Source of the DNA: a virus
Virus record (IMG/VR): IMGVR_UViG_3300042691_037168
Span: 1-21,681 of that record
Reading direction: 5' to 3' (one strand)
DNA length: 21,681 bases
The translations under genes and the position numbers were made by a program. Every line of letters starts with the position of its first letter. Position 1 is the stretch's first letter. The notes beneath the pieces were generated by a model. It was given only the letters and a program-made list of their open reading frames with translations, had not been told where the DNA came from and made no database searches. Positions 1,280 through 14,999 of the stretch are shown piece by piece.

Positions 1280-2308
1280 TTAGAAATCAATATCAGCATG
1301 TGAAGGTTCAGGATAAATATGCTCAGGTTCTTTTTTATGTAAAACCTGACCCCCACCTGATTTAACCAAATATTCTGAGTTATCAAAAATATAAACTTCG
1401 TTTGTTTTTGTATCGTAATATACTATTTTATTAACGAGTGGATATTTTGTGTAATCTCTCATTCCATAGGTTGATACATTATATCCTAAATTACCATCTT
1501 TATCTTTACCATAATAAATCGAATTAATTGGTTTTACTTGATAATTAACTCCATCAATGGTTATATCTACCCCTTCATTTCTATCCATTTTGGAACCACG
1601 AAAATAAGTTTTAATATCTTTTCCGTTAAGATACTTAATCAGATAATCTAACGCCCTTCTTTCCAATTCATCACCTCTTTTAATTGAATTCCATTGTTTG
1701 TTAACCATATTATCTAATTCTTTGGATTTTGAAGTTAGGAAATTAACCAACCAATCGAACGGCGTCTCACCTGAGTTTGTTTTAATGTATAATTTATTTA
1801 AATCATCGTGTCTTTCTCTTTTAGTGTCAAAATAATTTAAAATTGACCAATCTTCTGATTCGTAAGGAGTACCTTTTAACTTATCACCGATAGTGTATAT
1901 ACCACGTAATCCTGCCGTATATTCATCATCAGATCCTTTCCAATTATATGGAAATGCCTTTTTAATCGCCCTTCTAATTAACCCTGAATTGAATGGGTTT
2001 GAAATTTTCATATTTTTAATTGGATATACTAAAACCTCGTAGTCTTTATAATGACTTGGATAGGTTCTATCAATATCAACAATTTCTTCCTCACCATTTG
2101 GTCCGACTAATTTTATTTGTTCAGTGTAACTAGGAGGATCAAATTTTTCAAAACCTTTGTATGTGGTATATTTAGTAGTATCCTTTTTCTTGGCAACATC
2201 ACGATACTTAAATTCGTAAGTTTTGTCAAATAGAGAAAACTGGTCCTCGGTAATTAGACCCATTAGTTTCTTTATTTTGGTAACTTCTTGAATGATATTT
2301 TTTGACAT
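1280..2308 (-). CDS. Candidate PD-(D/E)XK nuclease with N-terminal LITE tag
   Basis: 342 residues. The N-terminus holds KIKKLMGLITE (residues 11-21), nearly matched by the 541-residue protein encoded at 8574-10199; its I-T-E ending resembles the cleavage site of T4-type capsid propeptides. The middle has no motif I know. The C-terminal third carries a candidate nuclease core: G212-D-E-x-E216 in a helix, D248 in GVDITIDG, then Q257-V-K259 in a following strand. This matches the E, D and (E/Q)xK order of PD-(D/E)XK endonucleases. The gene lies alone between two strand switches and has its own CATATTTAT element 5 nt before ATG. A role in DNA degradation or protection is inference; the fold call is moderate. 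Confidence 0.65.
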   Translation of the reverse strand: MSKNIIQEVTKIKKLMGLITEDQFSLFDKTYEFKYRDVAKKKDTTKYTTYKGFEKFDPPSYTEQIKLVGPNGEEEIVDIDRTYPSHYKDYEVLVYPIKNMKISNPFNSGLIRRAIKKAFPYNWKGSDDEYTAGLRGIYTIGDKLKGTPYESEDWSILNYFDTKRERHDDLNKLYIKTNSGETPFDWLVNFLTSKSKELDNMVNKQWNSIKRGDELERRALDYLIKYLNGKDIKTYFRGSKMDRNEGVDITIDGVNYQVKPINSIYYGKDKDGNLGYNVSTYGMRDYTKYPLVNKIVYYDTKTNEVYIFDNSEYLVKSGGGQVLHKKEPEHIYPEPSHADIDF

Positions 2309-2313
2309 ATCTT

Positions 2314-2322
2314 ATAAATATG
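2314..2322 (-). promoter_or_regulatory. Phage-type promoter element CATATTTAT
   Basis: On the minus strand: CATATTTAT-AAGAT-ATG, 5 nt before the nuclease-like gene. It forms a divergent pair with the element at 2364-2372. Confidence 0.5.
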
Positions 2323-3535: not shown

Positions 3536-3826
3536 ATGAAGATAGTAATTAACGAACAACAATCATCCAGAATGGTTGAAATAATTAGGAAAATCGTTTC
3601 ATCAACAATAGACTTTGAAGGTGGTGTTAAAGATTTTGAGGTTATTATCCCCAATCCGAATTTTCCTTTCCCTATGTATGATGTAATTTTATATTTGGAT
3701 GAAGACTGGATTAGAGAAAATGAATTTCACGTACAACAATATATCCGAAATGTAAGAGCCGGCGTAGGAGATAAAATTAAAAGTATGACTGGTTTGGATG
3801 TTTATGTGGGAACGAAAATGAAATAA
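3536..3826 (+). CDS. Small phage protein with N-terminal IxE tag (96 aa)
   Basis: The ATG at 3536 follows the previous stop (3532-3534) by one base; an upstream in-frame ATG at 3458 would lie inside the previous gene. The N-terminus MKIVINEQQ matches those of the genes at 4475, 12361 and 14649 (M-K/D-[ILV]-[IV]-[IV]-x-E). A helix, a Pro-rich strand segment (YDVILYL) and a C-terminal helix follow. GDKIKSMTGLDV near its end resembles INKITGLDV near the end of the 4475 product, which supports common descent. Function unknown. Confidence 0.7.
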   Translation: MKIVINEQQSSRMVEIIRKIVSSTIDFEGGVKDFEVIIPNPNFPFPMYDVILYLDEDWIRENEFHVQQYIRNVRAGVGDKIKSMTGLDVYVGTKMK

Positions 3827-3846
3827 AAAAAGAAGTGATTTTTATT

Positions 3847-4173
3847 ATGAATAAAAAAATAGAATTAATTCATAGATTTTATGATGTTAGTTTTTCGGTA
3901 GACGAAAAAAAAAGTCTGATAAATAATAGAAAAAAAATTGTTTCCGTTGGTATAACTTTTACCCCTAAAAAATATTTTGAATTATCACCTGAAATCGCAC
4001 ACTCAAAAGCGATATACCATGTATTCCAATCTGGAAAAATTGAGTTATATGATATGATTTACATACGACCACATGAAATGCCATTACTGAGGGGATTTGG
4101 AACAAATTATGATCTTGACGAATATTTAGAGATAAAGTCATATGAATTAATGTATGAAAAAATAAGTCAATGA
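3847..4173 (+). CDS. Small hypothetical phage protein (108 aa)
   Basis: The ATG at 3847 is preferred to an in-frame GTG at 3835, since the short extension would be only four hydrophobic residues. The protein mixes strands (IVSVGITFTP) and helices; the second half has a Tyr/Glu-rich helix. No recognised domain. The stop overlaps the next gene as ATGA (4170-4173), so the two are probably coupled. Confidence 0.6.
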   Translation: MNKKIELIHRFYDVSFSVDEKKSLINNRKKIVSVGITFTPKKYFELSPEIAHSKAIYHVFQSGKIELYDMIYIRPHEMPLLRGFGTNYDLDEYLEIKSYELMYEKISQ

Positions 4174-4478
4174 GAACGACCAACCTAACAGACAGTATGT
4201 ATAAATTTCTATTAAGGTATTTAGATATTATCTTTACAAAAGAACAATTTAATAAAGAAGAGTTTAATGAAGATGATTTTTATGTAATCTACTCAAATGA
4301 TTATACGATTACTATTACCAAATCAACCCAAAGAATAAGGGTAAGTTCTGAATTATTCACTAAAATTCATGATTTATTCGGTGTTGGTTGGGGTGATTTT
4401 GGGGACCTACTTAGAGATTATTTATCAGATAAGTTAGATTATGATTTTGATAAATATCCAACCATACCTTCATTATGA
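4170..4478 (+). CDS. Small phage protein, paralog of the 4475 gene (102 aa)
   Basis: Joined to both neighbours by ATGA overlaps. It aligns by eye along its length with the next protein: TNLTDSMYKFLLRYL against VIITENKLERILIRYL at the start, and a shared K-[IM]-[HY] ... DLL ... IPS pattern near the end. The N-terminal tag is degenerate here (LTD in place of ITE), suggesting that the tag drifts or is lost in some copies. Acidic; no enzyme motif. Confidence 0.7.
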   Translation: MRTTNLTDSMYKFLLRYLDIIFTKEQFNKEEFNEDDFYVIYSNDYTITITKSTQRIRVSSELFTKIHDLFGVGWGDFGDLLRDYLSDKLDYDFDKYPTIPSL

Positions 4479-4795
4479 AAGTAATTATCACTGAAAATAA
4501 ATTAGAAAGAATCTTAATAAGGTATCTCCAAGAGGTTGAAAAAATAGATTTTGAACCGACAAAAAACGGGAGATATCTCGAATATAGAGATTACAACGGT
4601 GATTTAGTTATGGAGATCGATACTTGGTTTCCAAATTCAACGGATTGTAAACTTAAATACGATCTTTACATCAAGATGTATCGATTTTTAAATCTTGAAG
4701 CAAGTCAATATCATGACCTATTAACCTCGGTTATTAATAAAATAACAGGACTAGACGTTGATAGAGTAATACCTTCAATAAGGTATACTAACTAA
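4475..4795 (+). CDS. Small phage protein with N-terminal IxE tag (106 aa)
   Basis: Begins MKVIITENKLERIL, the clearest copy of the short N-terminal tag shared with genes at 3536, 12361 and 14649. A helix, then strands with aromatic residues (RYLEYRDYNGDLVMEIDTW), then a C-terminal helix containing INKITGLDV. It is the last gene of the cluster, coupled to the one before it, and its end overlaps the convergent endolysin gene by 8 bp. Function unknown. Confidence 0.7.
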   Translation: MKVIITENKLERILIRYLQEVEKIDFEPTKNGRYLEYRDYNGDLVMEIDTWFPNSTDCKLKYDLYIKMYRFLNLEASQYHDLLTSVINKITGLDVDRVIPSIRYTN

Positions 4796-5600
4796 GTAAT
4801 TTATGAAATTCTTTAAATTCCTTAATTCTATCTGCTAAACCAATAGTCCCACCATTAACTCGTTTAGTTACCGACGTAACAACATCATCTGTTGCTCCTC
4901 TATCACAAATTGACCAAAGGTTATTGTTATTGAAGAAAAATGCCGCAGATGCTAATGGATATTTAGTCGCTACCAAATCAGGATTAGCAACACAATCTTC
5001 ACCTATAAATTTTGTAAAATTTCTATAATTTTCTTTCCCTGTCAATTGTATAAATCCGCGACCACGGAATTTAAAACCTTCTTTTGAGGCTTCATCACCA
5101 TTACCCATTCTACCACCGTAAACTCTTGAAGCAATTTTTTCAGGTTGTCTTGCGTATGATTCCGCTAAATTACCTGGAAAATATTTACCAAATATCTTTT
5201 TAAGACCGTCAACAGAGTAATTTAAATTCTCACTTGTAAGTTTAAATCCCCCGCTCTCATGTGAACATTGTGCTAAAAAGTGTGCTAATCTTAGATTATT
5301 TGTTATATTAAATTTAGATGCGGTTTCTGGTATTTGAGACAACACCGAATCAGGAATATGTCCTTTTAACCTATTAATGTTTAAACCTGTTACGGGTTGT
5401 ATAACTACGTCTTCTTTTAATAAGATACCAAGTTTAGATAATGTCGTTGCGCCGGCAATACCATCGGGAGTTATTCCGTTTTTTGATTGCCATTCTTTTA
5501 ATGCCTTTTCAGTCTTAGGACCGAAATCACCATCCGCATTTAATCCCAATTTTTCTTGTAACAATTTAACTTCGTTACCTTTCATTCCAAGTTTTAACAT
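4788..5600 (-). CDS. Endolysin: peptidoglycan-binding domain plus GH19 chitinase-like domain
   Basis: 270 residues. Residues 3-58 form a peptidoglycan-binding type-1 domain (GDFGPKTEKALKEWQ, ITPDGIAG). Residues about 72-270 match glycoside hydrolase family 19 as used by phage endolysins: catalytic acid E115 in CSHESGGF, second acid E124 in ENLNYS, the GRGFIQLTGKENY block at 180-192, and RVNGG with DR near 248-258. It should cut glycan strands of the cell wall during lysis. No signal peptide, so a holin would be needed for release. It is divergent from the kinase operon, with an AATATTTAT element 15 nt before ATG, and its end overlaps the small-protein cluster by 8 bp. Confidence 0.93.
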   Translation of the reverse strand: MLKLGMKGNEVKLLQEKLGLNADGDFGPKTEKALKEWQSKNGITPDGIAGATTLSKLGILLKEDVVIQPVTGLNINRLKGHIPDSVLSQIPETASKFNITNNLRLAHFLAQCSHESGGFKLTSENLNYSVDGLKKIFGKYFPGNLAESYARQPEKIASRVYGGRMGNGDEASKEGFKFRGRGFIQLTGKENYRNFTKFIGEDCVANPDLVATKYPLASAAFFFNNNNLWSICDRGATDDVVTSVTKRVNGGTIGLADRIKEFKEFHKLLS

Positions 5601-5615
5601 ATCTCAATTTTTACA

Positions 5616-5624
5616 ATAAATATT
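5616..5624 (-). promoter_or_regulatory. Phage-type promoter element AATATTTAT (distant spacing)
   Basis: On the minus strand AATATTTAT lies 15 nt before the endolysin ATG, with an A-rich leader between. It is divergent to the element at 5645-5653. Confidence 0.45.
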
Positions 5625-5644
5625 TTGAGAATATGAATTTTTAT

Positions 5645-5653
5645 AATATTTAT
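5645..5653 (+). promoter_or_regulatory. Phage-type promoter element AATATTTAT (distant spacing)
   Basis: AATATTTAT lies 16 nt before the kinase ATG at 5670; the leader is A-rich (GGAAAAATAATACATA). No Shine-Dalgarno sequence is present. Confidence 0.45.
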
Positions 5654-5669
5654 GGAAAAATAATACATA

Positions 5670-7451
5670 ATGACAAAGTTTCAAAGAAGAAGTATTTACT
5701 TATCTGCCTTTATTACCATATTATTCCTCCTTTACAAATATGTTCTAACCTCGGGTATAATTACACATAACACATATACTGATTTATTTGATGTCATTTA
5801 TTTTATTTCCACGTCAATTATAACATTTAAATTGTTTCATGATTTAATCACAAGAAATAGAAAATATGAACAATACCAACTCAGTTCAAAGAAATTTAAC
5901 GAGGTATTGTTAAATCAATCATATAATCCAGATTATTATAGTGGTGATATAAACCAAGCGGCAAAAACCATGACAAAAGAGGCTGTTGAGACGTTAGGTG
6001 TTGATAGGTGTTCAGTGTGGTTATATAACAAAAGTAGAACTTCAATTACCTGTGTTGAGTTATATGTAAAATCAGAATTGTTATGGTATCAAGATATTAA
6101 ATTATATAAAAAAGATTATAAACCTTATTTTGATTATATTGAAGACAACCCAATAGTCATAGCTAGTGACGCTGAAACTCATCCGGCAACTAAATGTTTC
6201 ACTGAAACTTACCTGAAACCTTTAAATATAAAATCCATGTTGGATGTTCCGGTGATATATAAAGGTGATGTTATCGGTGTGGTATGTATTGAGTCGTATA
6301 ATAAACGTGAATGGACCACCGAGGAGCTTAATTTTTCACAAATGTTATCTTCATTATATAGTTTTACACACTCGGTAAATGAGTCAAATAAACTCTCTAA
6401 TGTTGTTACATCAAAAGAAAATCAAATAATTAACAGGATGGACGCTATAAATCGTTCCAACGCCGTTATTGAGTTTGATTTGAACGGTAATATACAATTT
6501 GCGAATGATTTGTTTTTAGATTTGATGGGTTATAACTCCGAAGAAATTGTTGGTCAACACCACAGTATGTTTGTTAGAGATGAAGAAAAAAATTCTAAGG
6601 AATATTCTGACTTTTGGATTAAATTGAAAAGAGGTCAATTCTTTACCGGTAATGTTGTTAGAGTTAAAAAAGATGGTTCATCGTCATATTTAATCGCAAC
6701 GTATAATCCCATATTAAATGATAATGGTAAAACTTATAGGATTCTAAAAATCGCTACTGATATCACGCCAAGCGTTTTACAACAAATTGAGATTGAAAAG
6801 AAAAATACTTACTTAGAGCACGCCGCTAAAATAATTAGACATGATATGCACTCCGGTATTAATACCTATATCCCAAGGGGAGTTAGTTCATTGGAGAGGA
6901 GATTAACGCCTGAGGATATTGAAAAACTAAAAATATCCGTACCATTAAAAATGATTAAAGAAGGACTTAGTCATACGCAAAAAGTATATAAAGGGGTGTA
7001 TGAATTTACAAACTTGGTTAAAAAAGATGCCATATTTCATACATCACTATGTGACCTGAAAGAAATATTGAATAGTTATTTAACTTCAACATCATATAAA
7101 AGTCAAGTATTAATTTCGGATTTACCAACAATAAGTGTAAACGAATCGTTATTTTGTACTGCGGTAGATAATTTAATACGTAACGGTTTAAAATATAACG
7201 ATTCTGACACTAAAATAATAAAAATATATATGGAATCTGACAACCTACTTATCGTTCAAGATAACGGAAGAGGGATGTCTCAACAAGATTTTGAATATTT
7301 ATCTAAACCATATGTTAGAAACATGAGTCAAAAAGAATCTGGTTCAGGATTAGGGTTAAACATTTGTTTAGCCATAATGAAGGAACACGGTTTTGAACTT
7401 ACCTGTGAGAAAAATGACATTGGTACTAAAATGAAAATAAAACTTAAATAA
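5670..7451 (+). CDS. Membrane sensor histidine kinase (2 TM, GAF, PAS)
   Basis: 593 residues. Two N-terminal membrane helices (about 9-29 and 40-60) are followed by a GAF-like domain (about 85-235) and a PAS domain (about 262-368). The PAS sequence (QHHSMFV, EYSDFW, GQFFTGNVVRVKKDG, ATYNPIL) resembles those of bacterial chemotaxis / BdlA-type sensors, some of which bind FAD or haem; cofactor binding here is inference. A kinase core follows: phospho-acceptor H391 in IIRHDMHSG, N-box D500-NLIRN, G1 box DNGRGM (531-536), G2 box GSGLGL (558-563). All catalytic boxes look intact. It is first in an operon with a response regulator 11 nt downstream. A complete sensor kinase is rare in phages. Confidence 0.92.
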   Translation: MTKFQRRSIYLSAFITILFLLYKYVLTSGIITHNTYTDLFDVIYFISTSIITFKLFHDLITRNRKYEQYQLSSKKFNEVLLNQSYNPDYYSGDINQAAKTMTKEAVETLGVDRCSVWLYNKSRTSITCVELYVKSELLWYQDIKLYKKDYKPYFDYIEDNPIVIASDAETHPATKCFTETYLKPLNIKSMLDVPVIYKGDVIGVVCIESYNKREWTTEELNFSQMLSSLYSFTHSVNESNKLSNVVTSKENQIINRMDAINRSNAVIEFDLNGNIQFANDLFLDLMGYNSEEIVGQHHSMFVRDEEKNSKEYSDFWIKLKRGQFFTGNVVRVKKDGSSSYLIATYNPILNDNGKTYRILKIATDITPSVLQQIEIEKKNTYLEHAAKIIRHDMHSGINTYIPRGVSSLERRLTPEDIEKLKISVPLKMIKEGLSHTQKVYKGVYEFTNLVKKDAIFHTSLCDLKEILNSYLTSTSYKSQVLISDLPTISVNESLFCTAVDNLIRNGLKYNDSDTKIIKIYMESDNLLIVQDNGRGMSQQDFEYLSKPYVRNMSQKESGSGLGLNICLAIMKEHGFELTCEKNDIGTKMKIKLK

Positions 7452-7462
7452 CCTAACACAAA

Positions 7463-7897
7463 ATGATAGAATCAATATTATTAGTCGACGATGAAAATCT
7501 TTTTCATTTAGTTTTTGAAGACGCCTGTTCTTTATTAGAGATAAGTTTATCGCTCCAAACTGTAAATAGTTCAGATGAGGCTGCAAGAATGTTTAAAAAA
7601 TGGTATGAAACAAGTAGCAAAGATAAACCAGAATGTGTTTTTGTTGACTTAAACATCATTGGTTCTTCCTTTGATGGAATTGAGTTAATCAGAAAGATTA
7701 ATTTTGAATACGGTAATCACGTTGTAATTGGGATTATCTCATCATCTAACGAACCCGAAGAACAGGCGAAGGCTATTCAGGCAGGTGCTCAATTTTGGAT
7801 CATTAAATCGGATGAAATAGAACCTAGATTAGAAGAATTTAAGAAAGACTATGAAGGGTATAAAAACAGAACCGCAAAATTTAAAATTTACAAATGA
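7463..7897 (+). CDS. Single-domain response regulator (receiver only)
   Basis: 144 residues, a CheY-like receiver with no output domain. The acidic pocket D9-D10 (LLVDDEN), phospho-acceptor D62 (FVDLN), switch serines at 93-95 and K115 (WIIKS) are all present. It should accept phosphate from the kinase just upstream and act through protein contacts rather than DNA binding. The gap to the kinase is 11 nt, and its stop overlaps the next start as ATGA (7894-7897). After the receiver fold is a short Lys/Tyr-rich tail of about 15 residues. The obvious candidate partner is the coupled membrane protein downstream (inference). Confidence 0.9.
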   Translation: MIESILLVDDENLFHLVFEDACSLLEISLSLQTVNSSDEAARMFKKWYETSSKDKPECVFVDLNIIGSSFDGIELIRKINFEYGNHVVIGIISSSNEPEEQAKAIQAGAQFWIIKSDEIEPRLEEFKKDYEGYKNRTAKFKIYK

Positions 7898-8571
7898 TAT
7901 CATTTAATAAACAAACTAAACAACAGTTAATTACTCTTTGTAAATCAAGAAATATTTGTCTTGAAGGAAATATTATTAAGGTAATTGACTATTCAGGAGA
8001 TACTGAATTTGAACAGTACATAAAAACTTGTTTGGAAAAAGATAAGGAGGTCAGAAAAAAGAGACTGGAAATCACTAAGCAAGTTCAGTCTAAAAATAGT
8101 GAATTAGTCAATTTAAATAACGAAAATGAACGGATAATGAAAGAACTAAGAGATAGTTTAAAATCCGTTGAGGAAACTAAAATTAAGTTTGAGGCTCAGA
8201 ATATTGAATTGACCGCATGGAAAGAAGAGAGTGAAAAAATTAGTTTGGAATTACAACAAGAAATGTTAAAATCTGAACAGGCGAGAATTGAAGCAGAAAA
8301 TGCCAAAAAAACCGCTGAAAATGATTTGGACGTGTTACAAAAAAGAACCCAAACTCAATTAATTGAGAGAATCGTAAAAGTGTCATTGGGCGTTATTATT
8401 ACGGTGGGGGCAATTACCACTCTAATGTATATGATTGCGTTATTTAACGATAAAGACACTCAAATGATAGGATCTACATGGTCTAATATGTTGGGTATAT
8501 TATTGACAAACGCATTTAGTATTATAGGTACAATAATGGGTGTTAAATACGCATCGAAAGAGACCGAATAA
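7894..8571 (+). CDS. Coiled-coil protein with two C-terminal membrane helices
   Basis: 225 residues. After a short globular start (1-45) comes a long, highly charged coiled coil (about 45-155). Two membrane helices follow (about 161-184 and 197-217), with the short tail VKYASKETE. Last gene of the kinase operon, translationally coupled to the response regulator. The final helix (LLTNAFSIIGTIMGV) recalls some phage holins that end in a Gly-rich helix and a charged tail, but the long coiled coil is not typical of holins. It may be the effector of the phosphorelay, a structural membrane protein, or a lysis protein. Function not established. Confidence 0.8.
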   Translation: MISFNKQTKQQLITLCKSRNICLEGNIIKVIDYSGDTEFEQYIKTCLEKDKEVRKKRLEITKQVQSKNSELVNLNNENERIMKELRDSLKSVEETKIKFEAQNIELTAWKEESEKISLELQQEMLKSEQARIEAENAKKTAENDLDVLQKRTQTQLIERIVKVSLGVIITVGAITTLMYMIALFNDKDTQMIGSTWSNMLGILLTNAFSIIGTIMGVKYASKETE

Positions 8572-8600
8572 TTTCATATGAAATCAGATAATCTATCTGA
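8571..8600. repeat. Two adjacent palindromes at a convergent gene junction
   Basis: ATTTCATATGAAAT (8571-8584) is a perfect 14-bp palindrome. It runs straight into TCAGATA-ATC-TATCTGA (8584-8600), a 7-bp hairpin with a 3-nt loop. They sit where the plus-strand operon and the minus-strand 541-codon gene meet, and overlap the end of the latter. No T-run follows, so a terminator role is uncertain. Confidence 0.5.
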
Positions 8601-10199
8601 AAGTAATTCATTAAAATAACTTTTATCAACATCTGGATAAAACCTATCGTCAAAGTTCCATTTAGGTTTATCAAAATAACTATAATTAATTATCTCATCA
8701 AATACACAATATGAATTTGTTAATCCGCAATTATCAAAAATTTCATAAAGATATTCATCGTCACTCATATATTCATCTATTAAATTTTGTACGTTAACCT
8801 CGATTTCAGCACCTTCATCATTTAAGGACAAAACATTACCATACATTTCTAATAAATCCTTTAAATGATCTTGTAATGAGTTTACATAATCATCGGACTC
8901 CGCGTCGTTCTCAGCAGATAATAAAGCACCCACAACGTCGCCATCCTCATCTAATTCATCTATTAATGTTTCTGTTGATGAATCTTCATGTTCTGATGGA
9001 TTTTCGGATAAACCTAACAAATAACTTCTAATTTTTTTCTCATTTTCATCATTAACGTAATAATTTAACGAGGTTTTCCAATCCCCATTACCATAATTAT
9101 CCCAAAGGTCCCAAGGATCTGTAAGTAAAACCTCAAAAAAATAAACACGACGTTCTCTTTTAAATCCTTGATCGTCAATCCACCGTCTAGTCGAGAGTAC
9201 CCAATCACCATCGACATAAGCAGAAATATCATCAGGATTTATTTTTAATTTGAAATTTTCCAATGGTTTAATCTCAATTAAACCCAACTCTTTAAGTTTT
9301 TTTCTCAATGAATAGGACTCAAAAAGTTCTGGTCTATTACTATAAAGTTTTTTTATTGTTTCATCAGGTAAATCTGTAATCTTAAAATCTAAATCAGATG
9401 CGTATTCTGAACCAAACCCTCTTATCAAATAATCATCCTCTTCACCATCTCCACCTAAAACAAAAAATAAAGGTAAGATATATGAATGGAATTCTTCTTT
9501 CGGTTTTGAGTTTTTAGGACCTTTTAATTGATATAAAGTACCATCGTTACCAATAGATGCGGTTAAATGACTTTTATTTAATTTAAATTTACCACCAGGT
9601 AGATCTATTACCTCTCGTAGAGAATATAAATTATTACCTCTGGCGGTTCTTCCACAATGACCCATTCTTTCACATTCCTCATCTGACTCATTTGTTTCCA
9701 AATCAGCCCAATAAAACCCTGTGCCATCCTCTTTTCTAAAATCTACAACAACTGGATTATTTTCAATGTAATTAATTTCACCTTGTCCTAAATTGAGTGA
9801 ATCGTGCCATTCTTTGGATTTATTGTACAACTCCAAAAAACTTAAATCTTGATACTGATTTAATCTACCGTTAAGACCAACCCTAACCCAGTCCATAATT
9901 GATTGTATATATTCTCTATCATTTCTTGGTAATTTGGTTATCTTATTTAGTAAATCAATCGCGTCTTTTTCATTTTTTAAGTCAGCACCGGTCATTTTCA
10001 TATACATATAAAAATATTGTAAATATTTTTTAAACATAATAACAGCTAAACCACCACAAGTTCTATCAAAAAAATCGGCCATCACATCATTTAGACCTAT
10101 TTTGTTTTTTAAAACGTCTTTTTTTGACACTTCGGTAATCAAATTACGAATACCCATTATTTTTTGTATCTTAACTATTTTGGAATCTAATTTTTTCAT
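8574..10199 (-). CDS. Large phage protein with MGHCG motif and N-terminal LITE tag
   Basis: 541 residues. The N-terminus has KIQKIMGIRNLITE (residues 10-23), the same pattern as the nuclease-like protein at 1280. The conserved-looking centre holds ECERMGHCGR (175-184), then N-x-L-x-SLRE and, 15 residues on, SHLTASIGNDG and QLKGPKNSKP (224-233). This Cys/His plus SLR plus KGxxNxKP arrangement is familiar to me from uncharacterised phage proteins and vaguely from PcfJ-like proteins; I cannot assign an activity. The C-terminal 250 residues are very acidic and Tyr/Asp-rich. It follows two genes on the same strand with a 2-nt gap, so it is the end of a three-gene unit. Confidence 0.75.
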   Translation of the reverse strand: MKKLDSKIVKIQKIMGIRNLITEVSKKDVLKNKIGLNDVMADFFDRTCGGLAVIMFKKYLQYFYMYMKMTGADLKNEKDAIDLLNKITKLPRNDREYIQSIMDWVRVGLNGRLNQYQDLSFLELYNKSKEWHDSLNLGQGEINYIENNPVVVDFRKEDGTGFYWADLETNESDEECERMGHCGRTARGNNLYSLREVIDLPGGKFKLNKSHLTASIGNDGTLYQLKGPKNSKPKEEFHSYILPLFFVLGGDGEEDDYLIRGFGSEYASDLDFKITDLPDETIKKLYSNRPELFESYSLRKKLKELGLIEIKPLENFKLKINPDDISAYVDGDWVLSTRRWIDDQGFKRERRVYFFEVLLTDPWDLWDNYGNGDWKTSLNYYVNDENEKKIRSYLLGLSENPSEHEDSSTETLIDELDEDGDVVGALLSAENDAESDDYVNSLQDHLKDLLEMYGNVLSLNDEGAEIEVNVQNLIDEYMSDDEYLYEIFDNCGLTNSYCVFDEIINYSYFDKPKWNFDDRFYPDVDKSYFNELLSDRLSDFI

Positions 10200-10201
10200 A
10201 A

Positions 10202-10519
10202 TTAACTTCTTAAAGGTATTTTTTTCGCTTCATTAAAATCAAAATCCCATTTTGATCCATATAACCTATGATTTATATTAAAATATGACTCGACTTTATC
10301 AATAACTTCTTTTCTTTTTTCCCACAAATAACCCCAACTGTGTTTTCCTTTTAAGTTATTAAAAGTTACGTTAATTTCTATTACAGTAATAGTTCTTTCT
10401 TTTTCTGGTAATTCCGGCGACGATCCTAAATAATTTTTTTTTTCTTTAAATTCCACTTCCATAACATCAGGAAATGACCTTAAAATAACTTGCTCAATTA
10501 ATGGTAATATTTTATTCAT
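10202..10519 (-). CDS. Small hypothetical phage protein (105 aa)
   Basis: Middle gene of a minus-strand unit, 11 nt after the peptidase gene and 2 nt before the 541-codon gene. The N-terminal helix (ILPLIEQVILRSF) leads into strands (TVIEINVTF) and an aromatic, basic C-terminal half (HSWGYLWEKRKEVIDKV). The helix-strand-helix plan resembles the paralogs at 2378-4795, but identity is too low for me to claim homology. Function unknown. Confidence 0.65.
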   Translation of the reverse strand: MNKILPLIEQVILRSFPDVMEVEFKEKKNYLGSSPELPEKERTITVIEINVTFNNLKGKHSWGYLWEKRKEVIDKVESYFNINHRLYGSKWDFDFNEAKKIPLRS

Positions 10520-10530
10520 AACTAATTGTA

Positions 10531-11640
10531 TTAAAAACCAACACGTTTTTTCTTGGGTTTGTCTTTATCAGGTATTAATGCGTAAACCTTAGAGATTTTC
10601 TTCATCATTTCAGACGATACACGATTCATTTTTTTAATCTCATATTCAAAAAAACCAATTGGGTTATTGGAGTATTTTGACACCTCTTCAATAAAATTTT
10701 CATAATAGGTTTGTTTTTGACCTGAAAACCCAAAAAGAGATTCAAAAAAATCGCTTGTTAATAGTTCACCATATCCGCGTATTATTTGAGTGCTTAACGT
10801 AATGTATGTAACTTCTAATGTCCGCATTATCTTCTCTTCATCCGTCCGATGTATGTCATCTTCACCAATTTGTTTCATGATATCATTAATTCTTGACATG
10901 TGACCCCTCAACTCTGATATCATCCCTTCAAGAGAAAACTTACTTATGTCCTTATATTTTTGATATACTTTGTTACTTAATATAAAATTAACAAATTTAT
11001 CCCTTTCAACACCAGCCTTTTTCATTACCGAATGAACCTCTGACGGCCTAACAACATTCTCAGTTGCCGTGGTGTAATATAAGTTATATATGAACTCATT
11101 TATAGGCGGTAAATTGAGATTAGTTTGAGTATATCCGATATATTTAGCTCTACTTTTGGAACTTTCAAATGGCACCTTTGAATTTTCGTAAGCGTGTGCT
11201 AATTCATGAGTAATTGACGACTGAAAATCAAATATATTATTAATAGTAACTCTTAATAATTCATTGAATCTAGTATTACTATTTTTAGGTAAAACGTATG
11301 TTATTTTAAGTTTTACAGTATTACTTTTGGTTGTATCAACATTTAATGTGCTTTGATTAACGCGTGCATTAACTAAATAACCCATAGATGCGAAAACAAT
11401 ATCTTTATGATTTTCACTTTCAAAAAACTCAATTTCGACATCTACGGATTTAATTTTATAATCCGAGATCGCCATAGGACCCTTCACCCCAAACCTGTAA
11501 GTATCATCAGAATTAATTAATTCATCACCCTTATCTTTAATTTGAGTTAGTAAGGATCTCGTTATTTTTTCAGATACTTTTTCAATATTATTAGGTACTC
11601 CTACCGCCTCAGTTAATTTATAATGTTTTGACAAAGTCAT
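10531..11640 (-). CDS. Zinc metallopeptidase (HELAH) with short IxE/LxE-type N-terminus
   Basis: 369 residues. HELAHAYE at 145-152 is a clear HExxH zinc site, and TATENVVRPSEVH (191-203) offers a third ligand (E194 or E201) in the position usual for gluzincins. The N-terminus MTLSKHYKLTEA ends in L-T-E-A, close in form to the T4 capsid-targeting propeptide site. The C-terminus is basic (KPKKKRVGF). It could cut host or phage proteins; the substrate is unknown. First gene of a three-gene unit, with an AATATTTAT element 15 nt before ATG. Confidence 0.8.
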   Translation of the reverse strand: MTLSKHYKLTEAVGVPNNIEKVSEKITRSLLTQIKDKGDELINSDDTYRFGVKGPMAISDYKIKSVDVEIEFFESENHKDIVFASMGYLVNARVNQSTLNVDTTKSNTVKLKITYVLPKNSNTRFNELLRVTINNIFDFQSSITHELAHAYENSKVPFESSKSRAKYIGYTQTNLNLPPINEFIYNLYYTTATENVVRPSEVHSVMKKAGVERDKFVNFILSNKVYQKYKDISKFSLEGMISELRGHMSRINDIMKQIGEDDIHRTDEEKIMRTLEVTYITLSTQIIRGYGELLTSDFFESLFGFSGQKQTYYENFIEEVSKYSNNPIGFFEYEIKKMNRVSSEMMKKISKVYALIPDKDKPKKKRVGF

Positions 11641-11655
11641 ATTTATCTTTTAGAG

Positions 11656-11664
11656 ATAAATATT
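11656..11664 (-). promoter_or_regulatory. Phage-type promoter element AATATTTAT (distant spacing)
   Basis: On the minus strand AATATTTAT lies 15 nt before the metallopeptidase ATG, with an A-rich leader as at 5616 and 5645. Confidence 0.45.
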
Positions 11665-11665
11665 A

Positions 11666-11818
11666 TTACATTTCCTTTTGTTCTAAATAGGTATCATCTA
11701 AATTACCTATTTTCTTTAAATTCTCAATATCTTGTTCAGTTGCAATCGCAGTTTGACCGTCATCGGACATCACAAGATAAGTATTATCGTCTAATTTTTC
11801 TAATATTCTAACTTTCAT
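11666..11818 (-). CDS. Very small protein (50 aa)
   Basis: Fifty codons from the ATG at 11816-11818 to the TAA at 11666-11668; it begins MKVRILEKLDDNTYLVMSDD and ends TYLEQKEM. Two strand-like segments and an acidic helix suggest a small folded beta protein, of the kind that begins with a beta-barrel turn (DDNTYLVMSDDGQ). It fills the gap between the peptidase promoter and the FKBP terminator, which favours its being real. It lies downstream of that terminator, so it needs read-through or its own promoter. Function unknown. Confidence 0.55.
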   Translation of the reverse strand: MKVRILEKLDDNTYLVMSDDGQTAIATEQDIENLKKIGNLDDTYLEQKEM

Positions 11819-11830
11819 AAAATTTGATAT

Positions 11831-11857
11831 AAAAAAACCCCGAGGTTAGTCGGGGTT
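11831..11857 (-). terminator. Intrinsic terminator of the FKBP gene
   Basis: AACCCCGA (11836-11843) and TCGGGGTT (11850-11857) form a perfect 8-bp stem with the loop GGTTAG. On the minus strand it is followed by a T-run (11831-11837), just after the FKBP stop at 11862. Confidence 0.9.
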
Positions 11858-11861
11858 GTTA

Positions 11862-12287
11862 TTACATTACTTCAACAACTTCTAAGTCAAAGAATAATTT
11901 TTTACCCGCCAAAGGGTGATTAGCGTCAAGTACCGCCGTGGTTTCTTTAATCTCCTTAACTACAACATTGAACACTCCCTGTGGTCCGCTTGCTTGTAAC
12001 ATCATACCTTCATGAATATCTTCGGGCAACATGGTTTTTTCAACTTCTTGACACATATCTTCATTAACATCCCCATAAGCGTCAGTAGGTTCAATTTCAA
12101 TTGTTTTACTTTCACCAATCGACATATCGATTAACCCCCTTTCAAATCCTGGAATAAGTTGTCCTTGCCCCAATGTTACTGTAAGAGGTTGTCTACCCTC
12201 AACCATAGATGAGTCAAATACTGAACCATCCTCAAATTTCCCCGTGTAATTTACTTTTACGGTATCTCCGTTTTGAATTTTTTTCAT
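11862..12287 (-). CDS. FKBP-type peptidyl-prolyl isomerase (SlyD-like)
   Basis: 141 residues from the ATG at 12287; an upstream start at 12335 would add only a Lys/Ile-rich leader. The fold is clear: GDTVKVNYTGKFEDGSVFDSS at the start, then LGQGQLIPGFERGL, an insert-in-flap segment as in SlyD, and NHPLAGKKLFFDLEV near the end. This family catalyses cis-trans isomerisation of X-Pro bonds and works as a folding chaperone in the cytoplasm. It lacks the His-rich tail of SlyD. In a phage it may help fold fibre or capsid proteins (inference). Single-gene unit with its own terminator; a weak TATCTTTA at 12311-12318 could be the promoter. Confidence 0.92.
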   Translation of the reverse strand: MKKIQNGDTVKVNYTGKFEDGSVFDSSMVEGRQPLTVTLGQGQLIPGFERGLIDMSIGESKTIEIEPTDAYGDVNEDMCQEVEKTMLPEDIHEGMMLQASGPQGVFNVVVKEIKETTAVLDANHPLAGKKLFFDLEVVEVM

Positions 12288-12347
12288 AGTTTTAATTTTT
12301 TTAAGAATCATAAAGATAATAATTCTTTTAATCAACCCATATTAGGT

Positions 12348-12356
12348 TATATTTAT
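12348..12356 (+). promoter_or_regulatory. Phage-type promoter element TATATTTAT
   Basis: TATATTTAT-TGTT-ATG, 4 nt before the lysozyme start. The string TATATTTATTGTTATGGAT recurs exactly at the start of the minus-strand gene at 1245. Confidence 0.6.
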
Positions 12357-12360
12357 TGTT

Positions 12361-13230
12361 ATGGATATAATAATTAAAGAGAGTCAATTAAATAAATTGA
12401 TTGAACAGGTTAAGGTTAATAAAGTTGAGACCGTAGCTGACGAAATTTGGAATTCCACGTCGGGAATCGGAACGGACGAAGAAAAAATGTATAACGCACT
12501 TAAACAAATTAAAAATATTCGTTCATTTGTTCAAGTGAATACCCAACTAATATCAAAATATAACGAAAGTTTTTATGAAATCGTTAATTCTGATATGGAG
12601 TTTACCGAATCTGAAAAAAATAAAATAGTGAATATTCTAAATCAAAATAGAATACCCCATATTATAAATCCTGATGGTGATATACAATATAATAAACCTA
12701 AAACAAATTTACTTGATCCTCAAAATTTGAAACCATCGAGTGAACTAATTTCATTTTTAAAATGTGAAGAAGGTAAAGTTGGTTCTAAGTGTGAACCAAT
12801 GTTAAAATCTTATAAAGTACCTGGTGATGTTTGGACCATAGGTTGGGGACATACAGGTTCTTACGCCAAACCTAACAATAAAATAAATCCAAATACCGCA
12901 GAGAAAATATTAATTGATGATGCGGAACAAGCGTCTAATTGTGTTAAACGTATATTCAGTGATTGGAAAAATAAAAACATCAATAGAGGATTAACTCAAA
13001 GTATGTTTGACACTTTAACATCACTAGCGTTCAACGCAGGGTGTGGGTCCTTACGTGGCGGGTCATCAGAAAACGATCTTATTGACTTCGTGAAAAGAGG
13101 AGAATACGCCAATGCGGCAAACGCCATCCTAAACTTTAACGCAAATAAACCTGGTTTTTCAGGTTTGAAAAAACGAAGAACTAAGGAAAGAGAAATGTTC
13201 TGTAAAGAAGGTGGTTGTCAAAAATCATAA
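12361..13230 (+). CDS. GH24 lysozyme with annexin-like domain and N-terminal IxE tag
   Basis: 289 residues in three parts. Residues 1-16 (MDIIIKESQLNKLIEQ) are the short N-terminal tag found on three other proteins here. Residues about 25-93 resemble one annexin repeat: helix, G35-x-GTDE loop, then K-Y and a D/E-rich segment about 40 residues on. Residues 127-280 are a T4-type lysozyme: catalytic E137 in EEGK, T159 in VWTIGWGHT, and the SLAFNAGCGSLRGG block at 221-234. The Asp (or Cys) expected between Glu and Thr is V153; D156 is close by. It may be a virion-associated lysozyme rather than the main endolysin, since a GH19 endolysin is encoded separately (inference). Confidence 0.88.
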   Translation: MDIIIKESQLNKLIEQVKVNKVETVADEIWNSTSGIGTDEEKMYNALKQIKNIRSFVQVNTQLISKYNESFYEIVNSDMEFTESEKNKIVNILNQNRIPHIINPDGDIQYNKPKTNLLDPQNLKPSSELISFLKCEEGKVGSKCEPMLKSYKVPGDVWTIGWGHTGSYAKPNNKINPNTAEKILIDDAEQASNCVKRIFSDWKNKNINRGLTQSMFDTLTSLAFNAGCGSLRGGSSENDLIDFVKRGEYANAANAILNFNANKPGFSGLKKRRTKEREMFCKEGGCQKS

Positions 13231-13683
13231 CCACTCTGGTCTGTGACCATTCTTCCATACGAGAAGATCTTTCTTACCCTCTCTGTAATAATTTCTATAA
13301 GACTCGACCACATCATCCACCTTATATTCGTCAGGCATGGCTTTTGGATGTGGTGTTAATCCAACATCAGTGATGTTAGGTTTATTCGCGATACACCATT
13401 CTAAGACCGTTTTACTCTTATGGACTTTTTTGTAGCGAGTTTCATATTCATCACATAAAGCCATTGCCAAATCGGTTAACCATACGTAATTGGAATACGA
13501 TTGTCGTGCCCAAATAGAACAGGGGTGGTTTTTGTGACTTAATTTATATGGGGCGTTACCACCTGTAACCCAATGAACACCACATAAAAGTTGGACACTT
13601 TCAAGGATCATTTTAACACAATGTTTGTCACAATGGTCCTTAGCACATTTGCTAATATCACTATCTAAAACAAAAATATTCAT
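13225..13683 (-). CDS. Conserved phage-type protein (MNIFVLD...CDKHCVKMILE), unknown function
   Basis: 152 residues with the pattern MNIFVLD, then CDKHCVKMILESVQLL, a Cys/His region, HPCSIWARQSYSNYVWL and a C-terminal RPEWL. I know this arrangement from hypothetical proteins of many tailed phages, some annotated as pyrimidine-dimer glycosylase-like; I see no evidence that fixes an activity. Several Cys and His residues could bind metal. It carries a near-consensus Bacteroidota promoter, suggesting early expression by host polymerase, unlike the lysozyme that converges on it with a 6-bp overlap. Confidence 0.8.
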   Translation of the reverse strand: MNIFVLDSDISKCAKDHCDKHCVKMILESVQLLCGVHWVTGGNAPYKLSHKNHPCSIWARQSYSNYVWLTDLAMALCDEYETRYKKVHKSKTVLEWCIANKPNITDVGLTPHPKAMPDEYKVDDVVESYRNYYREGKKDLLVWKNGHRPEWL

Positions 13684-13687
13684 ACCG

Positions 13688-13718
13688 CAAAGTTAAAGTT
13701 TTTTTGTGATTTTACAAA
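13688..13718 (-). promoter_or_regulatory. Host-type (Bacteroidota) promoter, TTTG-N19-TAACTTTG
   Basis: On the minus strand TTTG (13715-13718), 19 nt, then TAACTTTG (13688-13695), then CGGT and ATG. Both boxes match the known Bacteroidota primary-sigma consensus (TTTG / TAnnTTTG). Spacing to ATG is 4 nt. Confidence 0.8.
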
Positions 13719-13736
13719 TTTAATTGACTAATATTT

Positions 13737-13745
13737 GATATTTAT
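13737..13745 (+). promoter_or_regulatory. Phage-type promoter element GATATTTAT
   Basis: GATATTTAT-AAGT-ATG, 4 nt before the secreted-protein start at 13750. Confidence 0.5.
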
Positions 13746-13749
13746 AAGT

Positions 13750-14634
13750 ATGAAACGCCTAATTCTAATACTACTACTATTTACTTTTTTGTCTCCTTTG
13801 TTAGCACAACAAGGTCAGATGGATAATATACAAATGTTATCTACCCAACCAACTACTTCAATGTGCGACTCATCAATTGGTCCTGTAAATCAGTCAGATA
13901 ATCCATTACCTACATATGGATATTTGGAGAGTAATGGGTATTGTTACTTCCTACCCCAACCACAAGTGTCATTTACTTTGTGTTTTCATTTCATTGCGAT
14001 GACCGAAGGTGTTTATTTAAACACGGGATTCACCGTATTAGGGTGTACAAACGTAGTTTTTAGTCAACTTACCTTATGTGATAAAACTGATGATTATATT
14101 GTCGGTCAAGGTCAATTTTTTGACAACCTAACCATAGGTAATGAATATGTGTGGTGTGTCACTGGGACCGCAACAGGTTTATTTTGTCAAGGTTTAAGTA
14201 GTATATGTCCATATTGGAATGAGTCATCGTTATTACCTGTCGAATTGACATTATTTACCGCAACTCCAACCAGCAACGGTATTCTTATTCGTTGGACAAC
14301 AATGAGTGAATCAAATTCAGATTATTTTTCTTTGGAAAAGTCAAAAGATTTACTTAACTTTGTACAAGTCTCAAAAATAAAGTCCGCAGTTTACAGTAAC
14401 ACTAAAATTGATTATGAGTATTTAGATAGGACCCCCTATGACGGTATCTCATATTATAGATTGGTTCAAGTTGATCTAAATGGCGACAAACGTATATATG
14501 ACCCGATTTATGCTAATATCACATTCAAAAAACCTGTTAAGATTTTTGATGTGTTAGGTAATTTGGTTGACATGGAATATAGAGGTTTGAAGATTTTAAT
14601 ATTTGATGACGGTTCAGTTGTAAAATATTATTGA
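13750..14634 (+). CDS. Secreted protein with type IX secretion-like C-terminal region
   Basis: 294 residues from the ATG at 13750; an upstream TTG is disfavoured because the promoter element would fall inside it. A clean signal peptide (KRLILILLLFTFLSPLLAQ) is cut near residue 19-20. A Cys-rich domain follows (about 38-180, eight or more Cys), then a Bacteroidota-type beta domain beginning LPVELTLFTA, with IRWTTMSESNSDYFSLEKS and DGISYYRLVQVD. Its last 35 residues (VKIFDVLGNLV ... GLKILIF ... KYY) look like a type-A C-terminal sorting domain of type IX cargo, perhaps shortened. This domain order is common on host surface proteins, so it was probably acquired from a host. Its role in the phage is unknown. 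Confidence 0.8.
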   Translation: MKRLILILLLFTFLSPLLAQQGQMDNIQMLSTQPTTSMCDSSIGPVNQSDNPLPTYGYLESNGYCYFLPQPQVSFTLCFHFIAMTEGVYLNTGFTVLGCTNVVFSQLTLCDKTDDYIVGQGQFFDNLTIGNEYVWCVTGTATGLFCQGLSSICPYWNESSLLPVELTLFTATPTSNGILIRWTTMSESNSDYFSLEKSKDLLNFVQVSKIKSAVYSNTKIDYEYLDRTPYDGISYYRLVQVDLNGDKRIYDPIYANITFKKPVKIFDVLGNLVDMEYRGLKILIFDDGSVVKYY

Positions 14635-14635
14635 T

Positions 14636-14644
14636 TATATTTAT
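14636..14644 (+). promoter_or_regulatory. Phage-type promoter element TATATTTAT
   Basis: TATATTTAT-AATC-GTG, 4 nt before the GTG at 14649. The spacing is what decides this GTG start. Confidence 0.55.
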
Positions 14645-14648
14645 AATC

Positions 14649-14999
14649 GTGAAACTAATTGTGGAAGATTCAGAAAAAAACGACATTTTATCAAAGTATT
14701 CAGAAAATACGTCAAATGAGTTATTAACTTATTTAAGACGAAATTTTCCTGTTACCACATACCCATTACCGAAATATCACCCTGAAACAGATTCGTATAG
14801 AGATATAATGATTCCGTTTATTGTAGTTGATGACAAATCTTACTATGTGGAATCAAACAAAAAAAATCTTGTAAATAAAATTTTTTACACAATAGAGGAT
14901 CAATTCACCGATTTAAATACCGACATCAAAAGACGGACGATTAAGAAGTATTTAGATATGATCGGTTTAACAAATTTTAACAATGAACGAAATACCTAA
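14649..14999 (+). CDS. Small phage protein with N-terminal IxE-like tag (116 aa, GTG start)
   Basis: I choose the GTG at 14649 over a TTG at 14631, because the promoter element would otherwise be coding and the resulting N-terminus (MKLIVEDSEKNDIL) matches the short tag of the genes at 3536, 4475 and 12361. The tag reads I-V-E-D, where others read I-T-E-N or I-N-E-Q. The rest is strands and helices with a basic C-terminal helix (IKRRTIKKYLDMIGL). Its end overlaps the next gene by 17 bp. Function unknown. Confidence 0.65.
   Translation: MKLIVEDSEKNDILSKYSENTSNELLTYLRRNFPVTTYPLPKYHPETDSYRDIMIPFIVVDDKSYYVESNKKNLVNKIFYTIEDQFTDLNTDIKRRTIKKYLDMIGLTNFNNERNT

Follow-up and report, generated by a model that had tools for sequence, protein, structure and literature searches.

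A virus record from IMG/VR (IMGVR_UViG_3300042691_037168), a fragment of 21,681 bases that we call the window, encodes several proteins that begin with short N-terminal peptides, here called leaders. Such leaders recur on unrelated proteins across viral contigs, are conserved at the protein level, and end at a constant junction, [ILV]-x-E, whose motif is shared with the major capsid protein, and the large contigs that carry them encode a T4 gp21-type prohead protease. The reading we favor, with a probability of roughly 85%, is that the leaders are removable capsid-targeting peptides, which a gp21-type protease would cut after [ILV]-x-E to free the cargo in the head. What we infer from these patterns is that the leaders dock on the prohead core, that gp21 cleaves them, and that the cargo is present in the virion and injected.

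A preliminary description of the window had proposed a T4-like prohead address tag at the N-termini of four products, starting at 3536, 4475, 12361 and 14649, and all four N-termini are found as it quoted them. A strict pattern (M, then K/R/D, three of I/V/L/M, any residue, and E) is matched by 3 of the 33 plausible genes of the window, namely 3536, 4475 and 12361; when residues 2-30 were shuffled in 20,000 trials, the mean was 0.03 strict matches and three were never reached. The common tag thus holds for these three, while 14649, which starts with MKLIVED and matches a loose pattern alone, is doubtful, and the product at 4170, proposed as a degenerate member on account of its LTD, starts with MRTTNLTD and does not fit. 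As had been stated, one of the four is a lysozyme (Pfam PF00959, E=6e-22; PHROG 7 endolysin) and the others are small proteins, with no known family matched by 3536, 4475 or 14649 in Pfam and PHROG searches. Better cases of leaders lie outside this list, in the genes at 1280-2308, 8574-10199 and 10531-11640. The leaders of the window are as follows, with a slash at the predicted cut and the classes as described further below:

12361..12405, + strand: class A leader on the lysozyme, MDIIIKESQLNKLIE / QVKV, predicted cut after Glu15.
12406..13230, + strand: the cargo of this leader, an annexin-like segment (assigned by eye) and a T4-type lysozyme domain (residues 148-276).
4475..4534, + strand: class A leader of a 106-residue protein, MKVIITENKLERILIRYLQE / VEKI, predicted cut; the core nearly matches the class A search pattern.
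3536..3580, + strand: class A leader of a 96-residue protein, MKIVINEQQSSRMVE / IIRK, predicted cut, a single-sequence reading.
2246..2308, - strand: class B leader of a 342-residue protein (gene 1280-2308), MSKNIIQEVTKIKKLMGLITE / DQFS.
10131..10199, - strand: class B leader of a 541-residue protein (gene 8574-10199), MKKLDSKIVKIQKIMGIRNLITE / VSKK.
11608..11640, - strand: short leader of a 369-residue protein (gene 10531-11640), MTLSKHYKLTE / AVGV.
14649..14666, + strand: doubtful degenerate leader of a 116-residue protein, MKLIVE / D, loose pattern only.

The preliminary description placed the cut at the first ITE, INE or IKE (residue 7). The likely cut is instead the second [ILV]-x-E, which falls at residues 11-23 in the window, with INE at residue 7 of the 3536 product as a possible alternative. 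For the lysozyme, this site is supported by relatives (MDIIIKESQLNRLIE/QVKI, MDLLINENQLKRLVE/QVKV and MNIIIKESQLQKLIE/QVKV) in which Glu15 is retained and Leu or Val stands at position -3. No homologue was found for junction comparison of the 4475 protein, so that its site is a single-sequence reading, and none was found for the 14649 protein.

Beyond the window, a degenerate DNA pattern scan of IMG/VR with the class A pattern MK[IV]IITExQ[LF] returned at least 120 stretches, while a control of equal specificity, in which the codons for Thr and Glu changed places (TE to ET), returned 0. Among the matches listed are 123 class A proteins with 50 or more residues, which sort into 44 payload groups with no detectable similarity past residue 20. 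Their Pfam matches include phage lysozyme, Cell Wall Hydrolase, HD and pterin-4a-carbinolamine dehydratase, as well as DHH under the curated cut-off; several further cargoes look ADP-ribosyltransferase-like by eye, and no library confirmed this. Variants of the motif beyond the exact pattern lie within 10 residues of the start of the open reading frame, beside Met, in 65/74 cases in the loci of leader-bearing phages, and the same variant motif occurs once early and three times later in random viral contigs. The codons within the tag vary freely (Ile5 is ATA in 63, ATC in 32 and ATT in 23 cases, and Thr6 occurs in four codons), which places the conservation at the protein level. In an unbiased gapped-triplet discovery over three genomes, I.E.Q was flagged in G002 (15 vs. 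0.8 expected) and not in the other two. A short-peptide tblastn search of the tags against a named-phage collection found nothing, although the method works close to its limit with 23 residues and absence is not implied.

Class A is one of several leader families. Class B (MNLQEEIxRIKxIMGLxxE), which was first noticed on the minus strand of the window at 2308 and 10199, is found in 33 stretches with 18 distinct N-terminal cases, 17 of which have the site after the core. Class D (MKKIIRLTESDLTRIVKRVINE) comprises, again among the matches listed, 150 proteins in 112 payload groups. Classes A, B and D all end in [ILV]-x-E, and more than one class can occur on a contig, such as A and B in G002. 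The count of unrelated bearers that the preliminary description had called for stands at no fewer than 44 and 112 payload groups for classes A and D, and its view of one tag on many cargoes holds as regards the many cargoes and fails as regards the single tag. One locus (L436, 4359-5932) has a tandem run of five genes with class D leaders inside 1.6 kb, with mostly different payloads.

Homologous bodies under unrelated leaders are, at the level of sequence, the strongest evidence for a removable address. Single-protein scans gave one relative for the 541-residue protein of 8574-10199 and 0 for 10531-11640, but an alignment query succeeded for the former and found relatives in 66 loci; the same query found no relative in bacterial genomes. 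With ten incomplete or fused loci left out, this family displays 25 distinct leaders of 13-29 residues, all ending in [ILVM]-x-E before a common mature start. Some of these are near-variants of one another and about fifteen are clearly different, for example MKKLDSKIIKIQKMMGVRNLVME/ASKK, MKLIESIKQIISE/ASKK, MNTNIRNILREGLIVE/ASKK, MKIINLIEELIIE/ASKK, MKLKEKYYHKKILNLLKEYNDNFGLLNE/SKKE and MKIIITESQFGILTE/NKAT. It is the plain listing of leaders that serves as evidence for this junction, because the regular expression used for extraction itself contained the site and stopped early in one locus (L297). In a nine-sequence alignment of the 10531 family, Glu11 and GVP are invariant behind leaders of 11-23 residues (MTLSKHYKLTE/AVGVP in the window vs. 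MKIIITESQLKLIKE/AVGVP and MAKIIITEKQMDLMVTQLLSE/AVGVP in relatives), and the C-terminal domain of the 1280-2308 product has a homologue with a class A leader in L112. DHH proteins likewise swap leaders (MKIIITENQLKQLIKE/SGIR, MDNMRKLIKE/SGIR and MKSLIKKVLQEEVKGILTE/SGIR), and the leader-swap families also frequently have a short form, MKxLIRKxLxE. Overall, the leaders before a shared mature start are about 10-29 residues long and not alignable.

Class D shows the same junction from the side of the leader: position -3 is Ile, Val or Leu in 142/142 cases, followed by the Glu, and conservation collapses directly after it. The site lies within residues 11-34 in 142/142 vs. 35% of body windows. Junctions also occur inside fused proteins (L294-298 and L340, all with two domains, L323 with tandem copies, and L313), which suggests fused cargo polyproteins with an internal [IL]-x-E linker, in which one precursor would be cut into two packaged proteins.

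The head genes of the leader-bearing phages are consistent with this picture. The major capsid proteins have LINE/A near residue 60 in 11/11 sequences with a full start, where we predict the capsid-protein cut, and the gp67/68-like proteins have LMTE/S or SLIE/S; the corresponding sites in T4 (NC_000866) are FLTE/A in gp23 and MKTYQEFIAE/A in ipII and ipIII. A Gp23 Pfam search of 11 contigs, run without a positive control, gave no match. In L052, L058 and L085, the gene immediately upstream of gp21 belongs to class A and stands between the portal and protease genes, a position occupied in T4 by genes 67/68. A T4-type prohead protease gene, for which the preliminary description had proposed a test, is present (gp21-type, PF03420) in 20/20 leader-bearing contigs of at least 250 kb and in 9/18 of those of 150-250 kb, as expected if many of the latter are fragments. 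It is also present in G167 (95 kb), the closest-kin contig of a window protein (67% identity). Among random viral contigs, gp21 occurs in 8/50, including the sole contig of at least 250 kb; this is a poor control because the random contigs are small, with too few large leader-free ones among them to show specificity to gp21 phages. Several gp21 homologues lie in unusually long frames of 386-1349 residues (G016, G136, G132 and OR050627.1 126501-130544), some split into two matches, which may reflect a fusion or an inserted domain such as an intein. Taken together, the pattern with its control, the junctions, the capsid site and gp21 in the large contigs support the T4-like prohead address that the preliminary description had proposed.

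Several observations weigh against this reading. About 18% of class A proteins lack a second [ILVMF]-x-E between residues 11 and 34. In an unbiased test of all homologous pairs with unaligned leaders, the junction was found in 12.8%, compared with 6.4% further downstream and 0/59 in random contigs; this is a doubling relative to the downstream control, among pairs that are not independent, and it implies that in many proteins a variable start does not involve the junction. The window itself contains no gp21 or capsid gene, although 21.7 kb is too short to show one, the core sequences are unlike the T4 address, and the literature yielded no virion proteomics or cleavage data for leader-bearing phages.

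Among other explanations, the leaders may be retained uncut, as docking helices that bring late proteins to the head core, the tail or an intracellular assembly site. The cores do seem amphipathic, their protein sequence is conserved, and cleavage is read from the junction; even so, we consider this unlikely, as the constant [ILVM]-x-E, the loss of conservation past the Glu and the internal junctions fit a cut better than a linker. That many cargoes are enzymes, wall hydrolases included, would also suit leaders that direct proteins to the cell envelope or to a compartment within the cell, with removal by an unrelated Glu-specific protease. The occurrence of the same junction in the capsid protein and in a gp67/68-like core protein, and of gp21 in all of the largest contigs, makes this quite improbable.

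Shared ancestry, in which the tag would be the opening strand and helix of a fold common to all, and which the preliminary description had named as a refuting finding, draws on weak similarities among small window proteins (4475 vs. 4170, E 0.008-0.015; 3536 vs. 3175, E 0.013-0.016). Their likeness to each other could thus partly be paralogy, but their likeness to the lysozyme could not: the tag is not part of the lysozyme fold, because the Pfam domain begins at residue 148, more than 100 residues past the tag. With homologues that swap leaders and payload groups without mutual similarity in both classes A and D, the common-fold explanation is already largely refuted, and we give it very little credence. 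It is just as hard to credit that the conserved start is a DNA or RNA signal, such as a translation start enhancer or a promoter. Tagged genes do often share an upstream TATTTAT box (see below), but the Ile and Thr codons are free to vary, the codon-swapped control is absent and the junction is defined by residues.

When compared to known systems, the leaders most resemble the capsid-targeting sequence (CTS) of T4 IPI-III and Alt, a short N-terminal propeptide with an [L/I]-x-E end on unrelated mature proteins (PMC9026906, PMC7411985, PMC3012670), and they share with T4 a gp21-type protease and a matching capsid-protein site. T4 gp21 cleaves behind L/I-x-E, and the initial 10 residues of IPIII are sufficient for packaging, where positions 4 and 7 serve in targeting and positions 8 and 10 in processing (PMC9026906); T-even internal proteins are diverse, with the CTS alone conserved (PMC3012670). 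The cores observed here (KIIITESQL, IIRLTESDLTRIV and NLQEEIxRIKxIMGL) differ from that of T4, V and M are allowed at -3 in addition to L and I, a genome can have several classes, the cargo families are far more numerous, leaders are exchanged, and fusions contain internal leaders. Because MKTYQEFIAE of ipII/ipIII has the end motif alone in common with the class A, B and D leaders, we regard the leaders as a CTS-like variant rather than a homologue of the T4 peptide. The giant phages phiKZ, SPN3US and 201phi2-1 also have many processed packaged proteins with cleavage after Glu (PMC9026906), but the phiKZ motif is S/A-x-E (PMC9026906), where we find Ile, Leu or Val at -3, and the 111-residue propeptide of SPN3US gp47 (PMC7411985) contrasts with the short leaders here. 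In P1, about 30 N-terminal residues of DarB send a foreign protein to the head (PMC9024508), although as a single signal, apparently with no separate scaffold, rather than as leader families.

Related forms occur more widely. A class E leader, MKHLKxYExFxNE, is repeated on many unrelated proteins of the huge phages LR756502 and LR745206 (635-642 kb; L350, L351, L352), in which TTAATATATA-like boxes lie upstream of class E genes and the only gp21-like matches are weak and inside open reading frames of about 700 residues. A DHH protein shows a swap between MLRKYGQFINE/EVG and the class A leader, and Chryseobacterium phage MA9V-1 has the leader MKNFFSFINE/A. The class E and MA9V-1 cores are unlike those of classes A, B and D and nearer in look to T4 MKTYQEFIAE. 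Several proteins detected in the published virion proteomics of phage CBB (PMC5259590) begin with short [ILV]-x-E leaders (MKKQINE/A, MANIKLLQE/A, MSKLDKFLNE/S), but these have no repeated core, and the table, which lists proteins without peptide positions, speaks neither for nor against a cut.

Tagged genes also differ in their upstream sequences. TATTTAT occurs at most 40 bases upstream of 82/164 tagged genes vs. 506/2248 others (p=2e-13), as well as upstream of the gp20 (portal) and gp21 genes, while the Bacteroidetes-type box TAnnTTTG is rarer on tagged genes (1/164 vs. 111/2248). The boxes point to two promoter classes, probably early and late, and these promoter-like boxes, on which alone the assignment is based, suggest a Bacteroidetes host. 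In the window, TATTTAT is found on most tagged genes, plus the endolysin and kinase genes described below, and the untagged genes 13683 (- strand), 15330 and 16963 are immediately preceded by boxes that match the Bacteroidetes -7 element TAnnTTTG.

12350..12356, + strand: TATTTAT upstream of the tagged lysozyme, late-promoter-like.
11656..11662, - strand: TATTTAT upstream of 10531-11640.
2314..2320, - strand: TATTTAT upstream of 1280-2308.
14638..14644, + strand: TATTTAT upstream of 14649.
4788..5600, - strand: untagged endolysin (peptidoglycan-binding and glycosidase-like, by eye), MLKLGMKGNEVKLLQ, with no class A or B leader.

Full-length relatives of this endolysin, at 60-61% identity, are untagged too. 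The leader-bearing 369-residue product of 10531-11640 contains an HExxH-like motif (HELAH), and a fold search with a model of it gave no significant match. Elsewhere in the window, 5670-8571 is a likely operon that is unusual for a phage. Judged by eye from sequence, 5670-7451 encodes a membrane histidine kinase of PAS/GAF type, the product of 7463-7897 resembles a response regulator, and 7894-8571 encodes a membrane protein with a coiled coil. The leaderless product of 11862-12290, an FKBP-type prolyl isomerase, has relatives in 635-642 kb phages at 39-49% identity, and 13750-14634 has an apparent signal peptide (MKRLILILLLFTFLSPLLAQ), which suggests that this phage protein is secreted or lies in the envelope. 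No tRNA genes were found in the 21,681-base window.

In the mechanism that we propose, cargo proteins, probably made late in infection, would begin with a peptide of about 10-30 residues, and the amphipathic core of this peptide would dock on that of the prohead. Inside the prohead, a gp21-type protease would cut after [ILV]-x-E, the same motif as in the predicted capsid-protein cut, and the conserved junction suggests that mature cargo is released in the head. This cargo would include lysozyme, other wall hydrolases, DHH and HD enzymes, possibly ADP-ribosyltransferase-like proteins, and small proteins, and would then be injected with the DNA or kept as a head component. A genome has more than one leader family, and cargoes trade leaders at the junction. 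More speculatively, the families could be distinct addresses, each with its own core partner, or its own place in the head, copy number or release time, so that together they would act as a combinatorial code by which each virion is loaded with dozens of effectors for injection, and recombination at [ILV]-x-E would move leaders from cargo to cargo; we offer this as a tentative idea that is more likely wrong than right.

Literature searches of an incomplete collection found nothing on the leader strings, and published work on capsid targeting concerns T4, P1 and phiKZ-like phages. The principle is known from T4, while the scale, the leader families and the reshuffling look new. In T4, the set of head-delivered proteins includes anti-restriction proteins and a host-modifying enzyme. 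Most likely, large uncultured T4-like phages load many unrelated proteins into the growing head by means of such leaders. As most genes of these phages are without known function, a leader would mark products that probably enter the head and are delivered along with the DNA, which makes the question of which proteins a phage injects testable across metagenomes, and the leaders may serve as new tags for packaging in phages of bacteria other than the enterobacteria.

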